From: Segetibacter sp.
GTDB lineage: Bacteria > Bacteroidota > Bacteroidia > Chitinophagales > Chitinophagaceae
NCBI GenBank assembly: GCA_025963675.1
Contig: JAOQAJ010000273.1
Span: forward strand, 1-33,867
Length of the DNA stretch: 33,867 nt
Direction: 5' to 3'
Shown here piece by piece: positions 22,514-30,201 of this stretch; the first letter of the stretch is position 1; each line of letters opens with the position of its first letter. The notes beneath the pieces were generated by a model. That model worked only from the letters and a program-made list of their open reading frames with translations. It made no database searches and was not told the origin of the DNA. Both the position numbers and the translations under genes were made by a program.

Positions 22514-22539
22514 TTTGTGAGAGCTTATTTTATAAAAGC

Positions 22540-22563
22540 AAGCAGTACGTCTTAGCTGCTTTT
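22540..22563 (+). terminator. Weak hairpin after the AraC-type gene
   Basis: AAGCAG (22540-22545) pairs with CTGCTT (22556-22561), then TTG. Six base pairs with a short T tail: a marginal terminator that overlaps the end of the convergent pseudogene. Confidence 0.3.
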
Positions 22564-23911
22564 GACCATGATGTATTCGTCCCGCAAATCCCTTTTTGCT
22601 ATTTCGGATTTCTCAGCAATGTCTCTTGTGATAGAATCTAACTCAATAACATTCTTTTTGAGACACCCCAAAAGTTCGTCAATGTTTAATTCTGATCTGT
22701 CAAAATCATCAAACATGCTTACTATTCCAGGCATGTACCAACGGGGTTCTGACTACATGCGATTGCGTCCAGGCTATTTCTCTCAATTTTAGGTTCTGAT
22801 CCTCCATTGCTTTATTTGCAATTTGCAACCGTTCATTACTTTCCTTTAATTCTTTTGTACGATCATCTACCAAACTCTTTAACCGGGCTTCCTGCCGGTG
22901 TTTGAGATAGAGTTGTATACCAAAAAAAATTGCAATAAATAAAACAAAAACTATAACTGACTTAAACCAAAAGGTCTGATAAAAAAATGGCTTTACCGTA
23001 AATGATAATGGAATAATTTGAGACCATTTTCCATATTGTTCTGCTTTCACTTCGAAAGTAAATTTTCCGGGATTCAAAGAAGTAAAATATGCCGTCCTTC
23101 TGTTACCGGCTGCTTTCCATTCATTGTCGAGACCCTTTAGGCGGTAATAATAGTTGATGGTATTGGGTTGAGTGAAATCAACAGTTGCATAATCAAATTT
23201 CGATATTGTAAATCCCTGCGTTAACCGAAATATTATGAGTAGGCGCATGTTGTTCATTTCCAAAGCTGATAGCCTGAATGTGAATATTTACGTCTGTAAG
23301 ATTGTCGTGGATAGACCATGGTTGTACAATCGCAATACCTTTCACTGTCGGAAACCAAATACTTCCATCCTTCATCTGCCATACACACGGGAATATTCCT
23401 CCATTTGTTTCGGCATTAGCCATTCCATCAGAAGCGCCAAAAAGCCGCGCATGTATTACTTTGGTTTTTCTTTGCTTTAAAGCTTTTAATTCGTCAACAG
23501 CGATGCGCTCCAAACCAAAATTTCCGCTAAGCCAAACGAACCCATTGCCATCATCAATCATCCCATATATAGCTTTGAAGTGAAGGCATTTGATTTATTG
23601 AATAGGATAAAATGATTATTCACATAGCATGCAAGACCTTTTTCAGTTCCTATCCACAACGCTCCTTCACGAACTTTGCATTTTCTAGTATTTCAGGCAG
23701 ATCAATCCTTTTTATTTTTCCCGCAGTATCAAGTACGTGAATACCGCCGGAACTGCATCTTTTGTTCCATAGATGCTTAGAACCAGTTCGGCAGCCAATC
23801 CATCTTTTACCGAATAGTTTGTTATTTTCCCATTGCTTATCTTGCTTACCCTTTGCCGAAAGCACCTGCCCAAACCTCGCCGTTTAAAGTATAGCTATTG
23901 TTAATAATCCT
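22552..23911 (-). pseudogene. Decayed propeller/Y_Y_Y sensor kinase-like gene
   Basis: This is the 3' half of a two-component-type sensor read through several frames. In order: a beta-propeller fragment (Y-T-L-N-G-E-V-W-A-G-A-F), further propeller blades (L-W-I-G-T-E-K-G-L, G-F-V-W-L-S-G-N-F-G-L), a Y_Y_Y domain (Y-Y-Y-R-L-K-G-L-D-N-E-W), one transmembrane helix (about 22920-23000), a coiled coil, then I-A-W-T-Q-S-H-V-V-R-T-P-L and a final N-V-I-E-L-D-S-I-T-R-D-I helix. At least five one- or two-base shifts are needed to join it, for example near 23870, 23770, 23680, 23580, 23210 and 22730. The N-terminal propeller is missing upstream of 23911. The natural C-terminus seems present at 22552. 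Sensors of this type often regulate polysaccharide use. This one cannot be functional. Confidence 0.88.
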
Positions 23912-24053
23912 AATCCTTTACGATAAAAAGAGGGGCTCATAGGAGCGACAGAGATAACAGAATTAAAAGAAATGACACACTTACTACTCTTTTACAAAGA
24001 GATGGTGAGCACGGGATTGGTAATCAAAATGCAAAAGTGGTGGAAATTAAAGG

Positions 24054-24092
24054 GATAAAAAAAGAGCATTAGCGAATCTGCTAATGCTCTTT
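24054..24092 (-). terminator. Intrinsic terminator after ompA copy 1
   Basis: A perfect 13-bp stem, AAAGAGCATTAGC (24061-24073) with GCTAATGCTCTTT (24080-24092), loop of six bases. On the minus strand it is followed by a T run. A related, shorter hairpin follows the second copy at 26039-26068. Confidence 0.85.
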
Positions 24093-24111
24093 ACTATTAA
24101 AAGATTTATAT

Positions 24112-25647
24112 CTATTTTAAATAGAGCTCCATTTCTACCCGCCTGTTTTGCGCTCTTCCAACAGCTGTTTTGTTTGGTGCTATCGGCATTGATTCGCCAA
24201 AACCTTTTGCCTGTAACCTCTCTTCAGAAACGCCCTTAGTTACAAGGTAAGATTTTACTGCATCTACCCTTGCCTGAGAGAGGATTTGATTACTCACCGT
24301 ACTTCCTACAGAATCTGTATGACCGCCGAGCCTAAGATTGTAATCCGGGTACTCGTTGATGATACTAACGATTTCATCAAGCTTGGAGAACGATTCACGT
24401 TTTATAACTGCTTTGCCTGTTTGGAAATAAATTCCCCTGGTGGCAAAATTTAAACGTTTTTTGGTTTCCTCTTTTATTTCAGGGCATCCATTATTAGTTG
24501 CAGGACCGGGAGTGTCAGGACATTTATCTACATCATTAGGAACACCATCTTTATCTCTGTCTACCGGACAACCATTTGCATCTACAACAGTTCCCGCAGG
24601 AGTGTTGGGACATTTATCTAAGTTATCAGGTACTTTATCTCCGTCAGCGTCAAGTGGACAACCATTTGCATCTACCGGAGTGCCTGCAGGTGTGTTAGGG
24701 CAGTTGTCTTTAGAATCCTCTACTCCGTCGTTATCAGAATCAGGGCAGCCGGCAAATTTTGCAAGACCGGGCACTGCAGGACATTTATCATCAATATCTG
24801 CAACCCCATCTTTATCTGTATCAGGACATCCAGCCAATTCCGGCAGACCCGGCTGTTGAGGACATTTATCGATGTGGTCTGCTACGCCGTCACCATCGGT
24901 GTCTACTGGACACCCCTTAGAGTCTACTGTGACGCCGGGAGGAGTGTCGGGACATTTGTCTTTTTTATCCGGTACTCCGTCCTTGTCCGTATCGACAGGC
25001 TTCTTCAACGAGAAGATTAAGCCCAGGTTGTGTTGCAGGTAAATGTCATTTCCACCTCGAACCAAGCCGTCCCAGCTGTCATCAAACGGACGTTGAAAGA
25101 TGCTGGATGCCTCTATCCCAAATGCATCATTAAACCTGAAAAATAATCCGGCTCCAATGGCAAGGTTTGCTTTAGTTACCCCGTCTGAAATTTTTGCGCC
25201 TTCAGCTCCGTTTACAAATTGTCTTGAATTTATACGGGTCGCGCCTATACCACCTATTACAAAGGGTGCTATGGCTGCATCCTCTTTAAAAAAATATCCA
25301 TTATTAAACTTATATTTCAACATTAAATTCAAAGCAAGGAAGTTTGCATAAACTCCTCTTGCCCCTGCAGCAGCCCTATGTTGCAGGCGGTTGTAAGAAA
25401 GCATCTCAACCAAATTGAATGATGGGTTAAGGTATTGCTGTAACGAGATAGCACCTCCGGGTTTAAAAGATTTAAACTTGTATAGAGTATAATTGTGCCT
25501 CCAAACACCATTGCTGTTGATAGCACCTAAATCTCCTATATATTCTGTAGCCGTACCATAAAAACCTATTGCGCTTCTTTGCGCCCTTAATTGAGAGAAG
25601 TCAGAGAGGAAGAAAATAGCAAGAAGTAGTAATGTGAATTTTTTCAT
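24112..25647 (-). CDS. OmpA-family outer membrane protein with TSP3 repeats (tandem copy 1)
   Basis: With the ATG at 25647 the product has 511 residues: signal peptide (about 1-22, ending L-R-A-Q), an N-terminal beta-barrel-like domain (about 23-205), a run of calcium-binding thrombospondin type 3 repeats (about 212-375: repeated D-x-D-x-D-G-V-x-D and C-P-x-T-P), and a C-terminal OmpA domain (about 395-511) with G-H-T-D-S-V-G and A-x-N-R-R-V-E for peptidoglycan binding. It likely links the outer membrane to the cell wall, with a Ca-stabilised spacer. A start at 25680 is possible but would put extra residues before the signal. It is nearly collinear with the gene at 26090-27628. Confidence 0.93.
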   Translation of the reverse strand: MKKFTLLLLAIFFLSDFSQLRAQRSAIGFYGTATEYIGDLGAINSNGVWRHNYTLYKFKSFKPGGAISLQQYLNPSFNLVEMLSYNRLQHRAAAGARGVYANFLALNLMLKYKFNNGYFFKEDAAIAPFVIGGIGATRINSRQFVNGAEGAKISDGVTKANLAIGAGLFFRFNDAFGIEASSIFQRPFDDSWDGLVRGGNDIYLQHNLGLIFSLKKPVDTDKDGVPDKKDKCPDTPPGVTVDSKGCPVDTDGDGVADHIDKCPQQPGLPELAGCPDTDKDGVADIDDKCPAVPGLAKFAGCPDSDNDGVEDSKDNCPNTPAGTPVDANGCPLDADGDKVPDNLDKCPNTPAGTVVDANGCPVDRDKDGVPNDVDKCPDTPGPATNNGCPEIKEETKKRLNFATRGIYFQTGKAVIKRESFSKLDEIVSIINEYPDYNLRLGGHTDSVGSTVSNQILSQARVDAVKSYLVTKGVSEERLQAKGFGESMPIAPNKTAVGRAQNRRVEMELYLK

Positions 25648-25725
25648 AAGTAAGTGTTTTGTTAAATCACTTACATGCAATTCTCAGACCTGATTGAATA
25701 CATCATTTTAAATATAAATGTGGGC

Positions 25726-25733
25726 AAACATAT
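25726..25733 (-). promoter_or_regulatory. Putative -7 box of ompA copy 1
   Basis: TATGTTTG on the minus strand fits TAnnTTTG and predicts a leader of about 72 nt to the ATG at 25647. At the matching place in copy 2 the sequence is AATATGTTTTG, which no longer fits as well. Confidence 0.4.
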
Positions 25734-25793
25734 ATTAAAAGACAAAATGCTTGTTGCCATTTTAAATATAATGAAGTTGATAATATCTTTCCG

Positions 25794-25884
25794 TCAAAAC
25801 TTCAACACTTGCATAAACCTTTTCAATTCGGAAATCTCTTCATCAAAAAGCACTTTATTGTTTTTATATTTTTATTTAGAAAAG
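25794..25884 (-). pseudogene. Copied 3' fragment of the 27773-28201 gene
   Basis: The minus strand reads F-S-K-stop-K-Y-K-N-N-K-V-L-F-D and E-I-S-E-L-K-R-F-M-Q-V-L-K-F-stop. This matches the last 28-30 residues of the protein at 27773-28201, with an internal stop and several substitutions. Its stop codon lies 1979 bp from the parent stop, and the two ompA stops are 1978 bp apart. It is therefore the edge of the tandem duplication. Confidence 0.9.
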
Positions 25885-26038
25885 ATGACCTGAATATTTT
25901 AACGGTAATGAGAGTTGAATCGAACGGATGGAATAGCAAAATATAAAAACCGATAACAATTACTCCTTTTGCAAGGACCTGCTGAGTAAAATTGTGGTGA
26001 TGAAAATGCGGAAGTGGCGGAAATTAAAGGGATAAAAA

Positions 26039-26068
26039 AAAGAGCATTGATTGCTACCAATGCTCTTT
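26039..26068 (-). terminator. Intrinsic terminator after ompA copy 2
   Basis: AAAGAGCATTG (26039-26049) pairs with CAATGCTCTTT (26058-26068), loop ATTGCTAC, with a T run on the minus strand. This is the duplicate of the hairpin at 24061-24092, two base pairs shorter. Confidence 0.8.
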
Positions 26069-26089
26069 GAAATTTAAATCATCTATAAT

Positions 26090-27628
26090 CTATTTTAAAT
26101 AAAGCTCCATTTCTACGCGCCTGTTCCGCGCTCTTCCAACAGCTGTTTTGTTTGGTGCTATCGGCATTGATTCACCAAAACCCTTTGCCTGTAACCTCTC
26201 TTCGGAAATGCCCTTAGCTACCAGGTAAGATTTTACTACATCTACCCTTGCCTGGGAGAGAATTTCATTCCTCACTGTACTTCCTACAGAGTCTGTATGT
26301 CCCCCGAGTCTAAGGTTGTAATCCGGGTACTCGTTGATAATACTAACGATTTCATTTAGCTTCGAGAACGATTCACGTTTTATAATTGCTTTGCCTGTTT
26401 CAAAATAGATTCCCCTGGTTGCAAAATTTAAACGTTTTTTGGCCTCCTCTTTTACTCTAGGGCATCCATTATTAGTTGCAGGACCGGGAGTGTCAGGACA
26501 TTTATCTACATCATTAGGAACACCATCTTTATCTCTATCGAGCGGGCAACCATTTGCATCTACAACAGTTCCTGCAGGAGTGTTGGGACATTTATCTAAG
26601 TTATCAGGCACTTTATCTCCGTCAGAGTCAAGTGGACAACCATTTGCATTTACCGGAGTACCTTCAGATGTGTAAGGGCAATGGTCTTTAGAATCCTCTA
26701 CTCCGTCATTATCCCAATCAGGGCAGCCAGCAAATTTTGCAAGACCATGTACTGTAGGACATTTATCATCAATATCTGCAACGTCATCATTATCTGTATC
26801 AGGACATCCAGCCAATTCTAATGAGCCCCGTTGTTGAGGACATTTATCTATATAGTCTGCAACACCATCACCGTCTCCGTCTACCGGGCAACCTTTAGAG
26901 TCTACAGTAATGCCGGAAGGAGTATCAGCGCATTTGTCTTTTTTATCCGGCACGCCATCTTTATCGGTATCTACGGGTTTTTTCAATGAGAAAATTAGCC
27001 CGAGGTTGTGCTGTAAGTAGATATCATTTCCCCCGCTGATCAAACCATCCCAGGCATCATAAAACGGACGTTGAAAAATGCTGGAGGCTTCTATCCCGAA
27101 TGCATCGTTAAATCTGAAAAACATGCCTGCACCTATTGCAAGATTTGCTTTTGTTTCACCTTTCGAAATCTTGTTGCCTTCAACGCCATTTAAAAGCTGC
27201 CTTGAATTTATTCGTGTTGCACCTAGTCCACCAATGATAAAAGGAGAAATGGGGGCATCTACTTTTAACAGGTAGCCATTGCTTAGCTTGTATTTCAGCA
27301 TTAAGTTAAAAACTACAAAGTCAGCATCGACCCCAACAGATTGACGGTTTAGTTGGTATTGTAGTCGGTTGTAAGAGAGCATTTCAACAAGGTTAAGTGA
27401 AGCGTTTATGTATTGTTGCAATGAAATAGCAGCTCCGGGTTTAAAGTATTTAAACTTGTATAAGCTGTAATTATGCTTGAGCGGGTATGAGTTGAAATTA
27501 TGATTGTTTAAATCTCCTATATATTCTGTAGCCGTGCCATAAAAACCTATCGCACTTCTTTGGGCATTCAATTGACAAAAATTTGAGAGGAAGAAAACCG
27601 TAATAAGTGATAATGTAATTTTTTTCAT
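26090..27628 (-). CDS. OmpA-family outer membrane protein with TSP3 repeats (tandem copy 2)
   Basis: The 512-residue product has the same layout as its neighbour: signal peptide (1-22, ending L-N-A-Q), beta-barrel-like domain, TSP3 repeats and C-terminal OmpA domain (G-H-T-D-S-V-G, A-R-N-R-R-V-E). Start ATG at 27628 gives a normal signal sequence (M-K-K-I-T-L). Compared with copy 1 the signal, barrel and OmpA domains are well conserved. The calcium repeats have drifted: D-N-D-D-V for D-K-D-G-V, H-C-P-Y-T-S for N-C-P-N-T-P, and D-W-D for D-S-D. This suggests altered Ca binding or relaxed constraint. It is probably in the original context, since the flanking gene at 27773 is intact. Confidence 0.92.
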   Translation of the reverse strand: MKKITLSLITVFFLSNFCQLNAQRSAIGFYGTATEYIGDLNNHNFNSYPLKHNYSLYKFKYFKPGAAISLQQYINASLNLVEMLSYNRLQYQLNRQSVGVDADFVVFNLMLKYKLSNGYLLKVDAPISPFIIGGLGATRINSRQLLNGVEGNKISKGETKANLAIGAGMFFRFNDAFGIEASSIFQRPFYDAWDGLISGGNDIYLQHNLGLIFSLKKPVDTDKDGVPDKKDKCADTPSGITVDSKGCPVDGDGDGVADYIDKCPQQRGSLELAGCPDTDNDDVADIDDKCPTVHGLAKFAGCPDWDNDGVEDSKDHCPYTSEGTPVNANGCPLDSDGDKVPDNLDKCPNTPAGTVVDANGCPLDRDKDGVPNDVDKCPDTPGPATNNGCPRVKEEAKKRLNFATRGIYFETGKAIIKRESFSKLNEIVSIINEYPDYNLRLGGHTDSVGSTVRNEILSQARVDVVKSYLVAKGISEERLQAKGFGESMPIAPNKTAVGRARNRRVEMELYLK

Positions 27629-27772
27629 AAGTAGCTGATGATTGTTAACCCATTCGACGCAATTCGTAGACCTCGTTGCAATATTATCATAATTACCAAC
27701 GGAGGCAAAACATATTAAAATGACAAAACCCTTATTGGTGTTTAAAATATAATTAATTGGATGATATCCCCA

Positions 27773-28201
27773 TCAAAACTTCAATACTTGCTTAAACCTT
27801 TTTAGTTCAGTAATCTCTGCATCAGAAAGCACTTCATTGTTTTCATATTTTGATTTAAAAAATAATACTCTTTTGTGTTGAGGATATTTTGCCAAAATTT
27901 CTTCGATTATTCCGCCGGGACCTTCCTGTTTTTCTTGTATTGGTTTTGGTGCAGGAATTTCTGATTTATCTCTTGTCGGCATTTTATTTATAATGGCCTC
28001 TACAGTTGCAAGTTTGCCTGGCGATAAATCTTTTATTTTAGAAGCCTTACTATGCAATCCCTGCAATTGTTTTTTACTAAGACTTCCCCGTTCCTGGTAT
28101 TGTTTGTATAAGCTAATGACAAATGACGAAACCGGGTAAGCAAGAATGCATGCTTCCAACACTTCATTAACAATATCAAGTCCTTGCTTTTTCTGTATCA
28201 T
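27773..28201 (-). CDS. Conserved-looking small helical protein, unknown function
   Basis: The 142-residue product is mostly helical and charged. An N-terminal helical part (about 1-85, with L-D-I-V-N-E-V-L-E-A near the start) is joined by a Pro/Glu/Gln-rich linker (P-A-P-K-P-I-Q-E-K-Q, about 88-98) to a C-terminal helix pair ending in E-L-K-R-F-K-Q-V-L-K-F. No signal peptide, cysteine or enzyme motif. The frame extends to 28234, but the ATG at 28201 is chosen because a good promoter lies at 28222-28250, which would put the earlier start upstream of transcription. Its 3' end was copied with ompA, leaving a fragment at 25794-25884. I do not recognise the family. Confidence 0.65.
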   Translation of the reverse strand: MIQKKQGLDIVNEVLEACILAYPVSSFVISLYKQYQERGSLSKKQLQGLHSKASKIKDLSPGKLATVEAIINKMPTRDKSEIPAPKPIQEKQEGPGGIIEEILAKYPQHKRVLFFKSKYENNEVLSDAEITELKRFKQVLKF

Positions 28202-28423: not shown

Positions 28424-28700
28424 ATGAAAAAGATATTAAAGTGGTTCTTTTTAATCATACTTGCAATTGCAGCGGGGATCGCAATTGTAACAGCCACAAG
28501 TCAACATAAAAAATATACAGCGCCCTATCCGCCCATTAAAGCATCTACGGATATAAAAGTTATTGAAAGGGGAAACACCTCGTGTTTGACATTGCGCATT
28601 AGCAACAGCGCCAGTTGAAAAATGGGCGTCGCCTAAGTGTGATGATTGCTTAAGTGCGTTTGTTCAATTTCTTTATTCATTAAGAAAGGCAGATATTTAG
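28424..28700 (+). pseudogene. Broken membrane-anchored cytochrome c gene
   Basis: The first 50 codons read well: basic start, a transmembrane helix (about 4-25), then Y-T-A-P-Y-P-P-I-K-A-S-T-D-I-K-V-I-E-R-G. This looks like the N-terminus of a membrane-bound c-type cytochrome, where K-H-L-V-x-x-x-A-H-C-x-x-C-H would follow. Here a one-base loss after E-R-G shifts the frame, K-H-L-V-F-D-I-A-H appears in the next frame and runs into TAG. A-P-V-E-K-W-A-S-P-K appears in the third frame and ends at 28700. The C-x-x-C-H haem site itself is damaged. About three quarters of a normal gene is missing. In the original frame a stop occurs at 28616-28618. Confidence 0.8.
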
Positions 28701-28729
28701 CTTTCAAAGTATCTGATAAAACTTTTCGA

Positions 28730-30201
28730 ATGAAAAAAGAAATTTTACTATCAATAATAACGGCAATTGCTTTAGGCATTTTATCACTTGCCTACAAGCC
28801 GGTAGTAAAGAAGGTAAAGGTTGCTCCGCCGGCACCTGTTTATCCATTACCATCGGAAAAGCAAATGGGATGGCATGAAATGGAGATGAATGCTTTTATT
28901 CATTTTACAACAAATACGTTCACAGGTCTTGAATGGGGTTTTGGAAATGAAAGTGAGTCTATTTTCAATCCTTCATCTTTAAATGCTTTGCAATGGGTAA
29001 GAACATTAAAAGATGCTGGTTTTAAAGGAGTGATTTTAACCTCTAAACACCACGACGGCTTTTGTTTGTGGCCCAGCAAATACACCGATCATTCGGTTAA
29101 GAACAGCCCCTGGAAAATGGTAAAGGCGATGTTGTAAAAGAAGTATCTGAAGCATGCAGAAAAGAAGGATTAAAATTCGGCGTGTACCTTTCTCCGTGGG
29201 ACAGGAACAGGGCTGACTATGGGAAGCCATCGTACGTAGATTATTACCGTAAACAATTGCAGGAGTTATTTACGAGTTATGGCCCGGTCTTCGAGATGTG
29301 GTTTGATGGCGCAAATGGCGGAAACGGATATTATGGCGGAACAAATGAAACACGTAAGATAGACGGCGCTACCTATTATGACTGGCCAAGGACTTTAGAG
29401 CTGGTAAGAAAAATGCAACCAAATGTCCTGTTTTTTAGTGATGCCGGGCCTGACCTCAGATGGTGTGGAAATGAGAGAGGTACGGCTGGAGAAACCAACT
29501 GGAATACCATAACAAACGATACACTCTTTGCTGGCAAGCCGAGGATTGAAAGGCTTTTAAATACCGGATCTGAAGATGGAAAAAAATGGGTTCCTTCTGA
29601 AGTAGATGTGTCAATAAGGAAAGGTTGGTTTTATCATCCGCAGGAAGATTCGCTTGTTAAGTCTCCTGAAACGCTTTTCAAAATTTATCTTACAACCGTT
29701 GGTCGCGGCTCAACATTACTGCTAAATGTACCTCCCGACAAGCGAGGTCTGTTTCATGAAAACGATGTGAAGGCTTTGCAGGGATTTAAGCAACTACTTG
29801 ATAAGGAGTTTAAAACAAACCTTGCAAAAAATGCAATAGTTAAGTCGAACGATGTCAGAGGCAATGATGCAGCATATGCCTCCGCAAGAGTAACTGATGG
29901 AAGAAAAGATACTTATTGGGCAACAAATGATAATATCACGAAAGGTTTCCTGGAAATAGATTTAGGTAAAATACAACCTGTAAAGTATGTTTTGGTGCAG
30001 GAGTACATTAGGTTGGGACAACGGGTAAAGGCTTTTTCTGTAGATGTCTGGTCAGACAATGAGTGGAGAAAAGTTGCTTCAGCAACAACGATTGGTTATA
30101 AAAGAATTTTGAAATTAGATGATGTAAAAACAAACAAGATTCGAATAAACATAGAGGCCGCTAAAGCTTGCCCGCTTATATCTAACGCGGAAATCTATTA
30201 A
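28730..30201 (+). pseudogene. GH29 alpha-L-fucosidase with C-terminal F5/8-type domain, one-base frameshift
   Basis: The ATG at 28730 begins a signal/anchor ([13 protein letters not shown]) and the GH29 barrel: [31 protein letters not shown]. The frame then stops at 29137. One extra A in the A run at 29114-29117 would restore [10 protein letters not shown] and a single protein of about 490 residues with G-V-Y-L-S-P-W-D and the nucleophile region F-E-M-W-F-D193-G-A-N-G. Residues about 365-490 form a discoidin (F5/8 type C) carbohydrate-binding-like domain (D-G-R-K-D-T-Y-W-A-T, L-E-I-D-L-G). The enzyme removes alpha-linked L-fucose with retention. Apart from this one base no other damage is seen, so it may be a sequencing error or a very recent mutation. 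Confidence 0.85.

Follow-up and report, generated by a model that had tools for sequence, protein, structure and literature searches.

In bacterial genomes, an ordinary tandem duplication leaves abutting head-to-tail copies with a truncated piece of the neighbouring gene at their junction. Mosaic evolution has been described for the outer membrane proteins of Escherichia coli (PMC12175518). The locus analysed here combines features of both. It lies in a Segetibacter sp. genome, on a contig (JAOQAJ010000273.1) of which the whole stretch of 33,867 nucleotides is referred to as the window, and it carries two ompA genes in tandem that have diverged unevenly along their length. An OmpA-family protein with a TSP3 linker in the related genome G005, where it is single copy, has the same domain order and is 68% identical to one of the two proteins (copy A). 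Our literature search returned no match for an OmpA protein with thrombospondin type 3 in Bacteroidetes, nor for OmpA in Segetibacter. An earlier sequence-only reading of this DNA recognised the duplication and overlooked its mosaic history and uneven divergence.

Two abutting units and the gene end copied with them

Both proteins consist of a signal, a predicted barrel, TSP3 repeats and an OmpA domain, in this order (Table 1). The C-terminal OmpA domain (PF00691) scores 73.8 and 72.2 bits, above the curated cut-off of 27.2 in both copies. In the structure model of copy A, which serves as a rough guide (mean pLDDT 73, pTM 0.41), eight long strands lie between residues 24 and 214; at the C-terminal end, a mixed helix-strand domain coincides with the position of the OmpA domain.

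Table 1. Features of the duplicated ompA locus (positions in the window).
Feature	Position	Strand	Basis or remark
Segment lacking from the locus in G009 and G006, which have a 55-aa gene there	22515-27772	.	Synteny and alignment
Unit A of the duplication	~23906-25883	-	Offset repeats, alignment, edge tests; left edge uncertain by tens of bases
Terminator hairpin, copy A	24061-24092	-	-19 kcal/mol, z -6.6
ompA copy A, 511 aa	24112-25647	-	ORF, Pfam OmpA and TSP_3, structure model
Diverged barrel tract, copy A, codons 67-259	24871-25449	-	Residue-keeping codons that differ (counts in text)
Decayed tail copy	25791-25883	-	Gapless match to 27770-27862; premature TAA
Unit B of the duplication	~25884-27862	-	Offset repeats, alignment, edge tests
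Terminator hairpin, copy B	26039-26068	-	-15.9 kcal/mol, z -5.7
ompA copy B, 512 aa	26090-27628	-	ORF and Pfam; domain order as copy A
Matching barrel tract, copy B	26849-27427	-	Coordinates from codon alignment
Intact neighbour gene, 142 aa, source of the tail	27773-28201	-	ORF; without Pfam match

The sequence-only reading had proposed that the two genes and their flanks repeat at an offset of 1978-1979. In agreement, families of direct repeats with offsets of 1976-1981 connect 23989-25883 to 25966-27862, covering the gene, its upstream region and its terminator region, and in both copies the strong hairpin and the T run that follows it are retained. The homology that the reading had suggested following through the intergenic region is continuous: one local alignment, the leftmost part of which is chance, covers 23841-25883 and 25808-27862, and the intergenic stretch alone (25648-25790 against 27629-27769) shows identity at 102/138 positions with 8 gap positions. 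Its alignment score of 50 compares with a mean of -7.8 (sd 4.9, maximum 8.0) for 300 shuffles.

The edges of the units follow from two comparisons. The 78 bases adjoining the tail fragment (25884-25961) resemble the left end of unit A (23906-23984) more closely than any of 1000 shuffles, and the tail fragment itself is without a match left of 23906 (25797-25883 against 23820-23905, 267 of 1000 shuffles equal or better). We therefore place the left edge at about 23906 and the border between the units at about 25883/25884. The units, each of about 1,978 bp, thus abut head to tail, as a simple tandem duplication predicts. The right edge previously put at about 25885/27864 is indeed fixed by the copied tail; it is refined here to 25883/27862, and the left edge is added.

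The breakpoint lies inside the neighbouring gene, as had been claimed. The tail copy, 93 nt long, corresponds to the last 29 codons and the stop of this gene and is identical to its source at 80 of 93 positions. A six-frame search extends the fragment match to 25907, with two TAA, but we take 25884-25907 as ambiguous because these bases also belong to the stretch matching the unit's left end. The sequence-only reading further held that the fragment (given as 25794-25884, with an internal stop) is decaying, and the pattern of substitutions is in line with this: the 12 coding mismatches between the tails of units A and B are spread 4/5/3 over codon positions 1/2/3. When the intact tail B is compared with relatives, differences fall most often on the third codon position at 15 of the 18 usable loci (6, 5 and 14 by codon position against L002 of G009, for instance, and 5, 3 and 12 against L007 of G008), and the first position is the commonest in L013, L019 and L020. 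These 18 loci are those of 20 that gave the gene end; L012 and L021 matched the wrong place and were dropped. The neighbour gene is present in 21 of 59 genomes, own included.

At the sites where tails A and B differ, relatives side with B, by 8 to 1 in G009 (neither, 3), 7 to 2 in G006 (L003; neither, 3) and 10 to 0 in G008 (neither, 2). Moreover, tail A agrees with tail B at 75/87 positions and with any of the 18 usable relatives at no more than 57/87. Given these two observations and the codon-flat mismatches, we conclude that the fragment arose in this lineage and decayed afterwards. The same mismatches bear on the question of an assembly artefact. The genome is fragmented (4.93 Mb in 444 contigs, 88% complete), and two alleles or strains might have been merged into a false tandem. 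Yet the copies are only 83% identical in amino acids, both lie inside one contig in which the flanking gene order on both sides is common to two relatives, and joined alleles would not be expected to leave a codon-flat, decayed tail where they meet, so that an artefact appears exceedingly improbable.

The locus and its homologues in related genomes

In G009 and G006, the order of genes is fucosidase, neighbour gene, 55-aa gene, AraC-type regulator, xylulokinase and xylose isomerase, with no ompA. The comparison of the locus is based on these two relatives, the other six genus members read around the neighbour gene having a different gene order. The 55-aa gene (L023 10036-10200; L024 8744-8908) occurs in 8 of 59 genomes; these eight belong to the nine other genus members covered, and the window's own genome lacks the gene. 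The 5.3-kb segment, in which the two ompA units and a decayed sensor gene lie, has probably replaced the 55-aa gene here; alternatively, ompA may have been lost in G009 and G006.

Of 394 family genomes, 7 (the window's own among them) carry homologues at E <= 1e-100, and none but the window's has two (three candidates were scored per genome). Within the genus, one homologue at E <= 1e-90 occurs in each of 3 out of 10 genomes. A single-copy precursor, with the neighbour gene followed by one ompA, was not found among 10 loci from 8 genus genomes, an ompA next to the neighbour gene being seen only in the window; in the stretches read of G005 and G008, the ompA homologue and the neighbour gene are not adjacent.

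The variability of the locus, where the whole segment is missing from G009 and G006, would suit another origin of the second unit, namely a foreign piece (tail plus ompA) that came from another strain or species organised in the same way, or arrived through an element integrating at the gene's 3' end. Against such an import stand the codon-flat differences of the tail copy and its greater closeness to the window's intact tail than to any usable relative, and the ORF list (80 aa or more) contains no integrase-like ORF between the units. We consider this origin improbable.

Several further features of the surroundings were noted. The sensor gene adjoining the left edge of the ompA units (22570-23900) is a two-component sensor with a Y_Y_Y domain and several frame changes. 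The alpha-L-fucosidase gene (GH29-like, 28646-30201) is present as two ORFs in different frames, split near 29101-29137, either by a true frameshift or by an assembly error; in L023 and L024 both match pieces lie in one frame by coordinates. Finally, two nearly identical homologues (L036 6001-7500 and L037 6001-7500), about 57% identical to copy B, come from records titled Ohtaekwangia koreensis and uncultured Bacteroides sp., which may reflect horizontal transfer or a mislabelled MAG.

Uneven divergence along the two copies

Synonymous differences between copies A and B amount to 136/180 (0.76) in codons 1-272 and to 34/161 (0.21) in codons 273-511. Against G005, synonymous differences are near saturation in the 5' and 3' parts of both copies (copy A, 0.85 and 0.71; copy B, 0.78 and 0.74). 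Fourfold sites give the same picture, with 36 matching and 44 differing in the 5' part of the A/B comparison and 84 and 17 in the 3' part (p 1e-7); the same test against G005 yields p 0.13 and 0.39. Introducing one break improves the log-likelihood by 30.8 units, against 9.3 for the best of 500 permutations. Among codons that keep their residue, the differing fraction rises from 12/46 in codons 1-66 to 83/149 in codons 67-259 and falls to 31/223 in codons 260-511. The first block is less diverged than the barrel core (p 0.0006) and slightly exceeds the 3' half (p 0.048). Synonymous divergence between A and B thus climbs steeply over a limited tract, with conserved sequence on either side.

Five nearby genes compared between this genome and the syntenic G009 and G006 have pS values of 0.56-0.81, a range that includes the barrel pS of 0.76. 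The barrel tracts of A and B are therefore as different as genes of different species, and the remainder of the unit is far less so. A single duplication of a single age, as the sequence-only reading had implied, does not fit a barrel part at species-level synonymous divergence next to a 3' half, non-coding pieces and a tail that are far less diverged; at least one recombination event must be added to the duplication.

Amino-acid differences are distributed as 19/66 (codons 1-66), 36/147 (67-213), 5/46 (214-259), 18/141 (260-400) and 9/111 (401-511). By eye, in the alignment read against the model, they cluster in two predicted loops, residues 40-61 (10/22 differ) and 92-96 (5/5 differ), which we take to be outer loops by the usual OmpA topology. 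This clustering would agree with faster divergence of the barrel by selection alone after a simple duplication, a reading that is contradicted by the location of the excess at synonymous sites (codons 67-259 against 260-511, counts above) and that we reject as having next to no probability. In codons 260-400, where numbers are small, 10 derived residues fall to B and 3 to A, with 5 undecided (outgroup G005).

A foreign copy is not told by GC3 (5' part, 0.397 in A and 0.359 in B; 3' part, 0.300 and 0.292), all ompA parts lying within the range of six other window genes (0.266-0.417). In trees of ten homologues, one genome per species, the barrels of A and B are sisters (support 0.989 and 0.977), and no barrel donor is found among these homologues.

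The decayed tail allows the duplication to be dated separately from the barrel. Under a Jukes-Cantor model, with tail A assumed neutral and tail B changing at synonymous sites only, 13.0 mismatches are expected at dS 0.25, the age of the 3' half, and 39.2 at dS 1; 13 are seen (P 4e-9 under dS 1). The comparison of substitution rates between ompA and the fragment, which had been put forward earlier, thus shows the tail to fit the 3' half and not the barrel. Pooled together, the tail, intergenic and terminator pieces differ at 62/316 positions, which is not different from the 3' half (p 0.72). The non-coding pieces are heterogeneous, however, with the left end included (40/117, p 0.001) as well as without it (p 0.04).

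A possible history, and comparison with known mosaics

Since the tail clock and the pooled non-coding pieces match the 3' half, we think it probable that the duplication is the younger event of the two dates considered and that a divergent homologue afterwards replaced the barrel segment in one of the copies. An ompA-type gene would already have stood downstream of the 142-aa gene when a unit of about 1,978 bp, reaching from within the neighbour's last codons to a point some 206 bp beyond the ompA stop, was duplicated. The copied tail, severed from the rest of its gene, would have drifted neutrally. After the duplication, for which the synonymous distance is now about 0.25, codons ~67-259 of one copy may have been replaced through homologous recombination with a divergent relative. 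The data show the tandem structure, the unit edges, the decay of the tail and the uneven divergence directly; we infer that the new barrel came from outside and that a single copy was its recipient. Because the A and B barrels remain sisters, the donor would be an unsampled close relative. The outcome would be two OmpA proteins that share a similar peptidoglycan-binding end and TSP3 linker and differ in barrels and loops. The pair likely forms two anchors with different outer faces; any benefit might lie in varied surface loops, and a role of the differing barrels in escape from phages or predators is conjecture.

The divergence of codons 1-66 and the heterogeneous non-coding pieces leave room for several conversion events. 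In a less probable account, duplication and barrel divergence are of the same age, and gene conversion between the copies has since made their 3' halves alike and, independently, their upstream and tail sides, leaving the barrel untouched. The low-divergence 3' tract, bounded downstream by the more diverged left end, and the sister position of the barrels would agree with this, but this account requires two or more conversions, flanking the barrel on both sides, and a neutral tail of barrel age should carry about 39 or more mismatches in 93 positions. We retain this older duplication as a tentative alternative because of the heterogeneity, the excess in codons 1-66, the lack of a known donor and the sister barrels. 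It is also conceivable, but doubtful, that the tandem pair acts as a two-slot store of barrel variants, the anchor end and upstream side being kept alike by recombination and barrels being exchanged with other species; one tested barrel would then be kept while another is sampled.

With the favoured replacement, the locus would add a candidate barrel exchange in an environmental Segetibacter relative. It also illustrates that plain identity between tandem copies can mislead on age, and that a decaying gene fragment can serve as an internal clock dating a duplication separately from the divergence of its barrel. The mosaic proteins of E. coli (PMC12175518) have in common with the present pair a conserved sequence with a locally recombined, diverged stretch. 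Unlike those mosaics, the present case involves two tandem copies in one genome, and its tract spans most of the barrel instead of individual loops. From an ordinary tandem duplication, the copies differ only in their later, uneven divergence. The event is thus an ordinary tandem duplication plus mosaicism of the sort known in outer membrane proteins.
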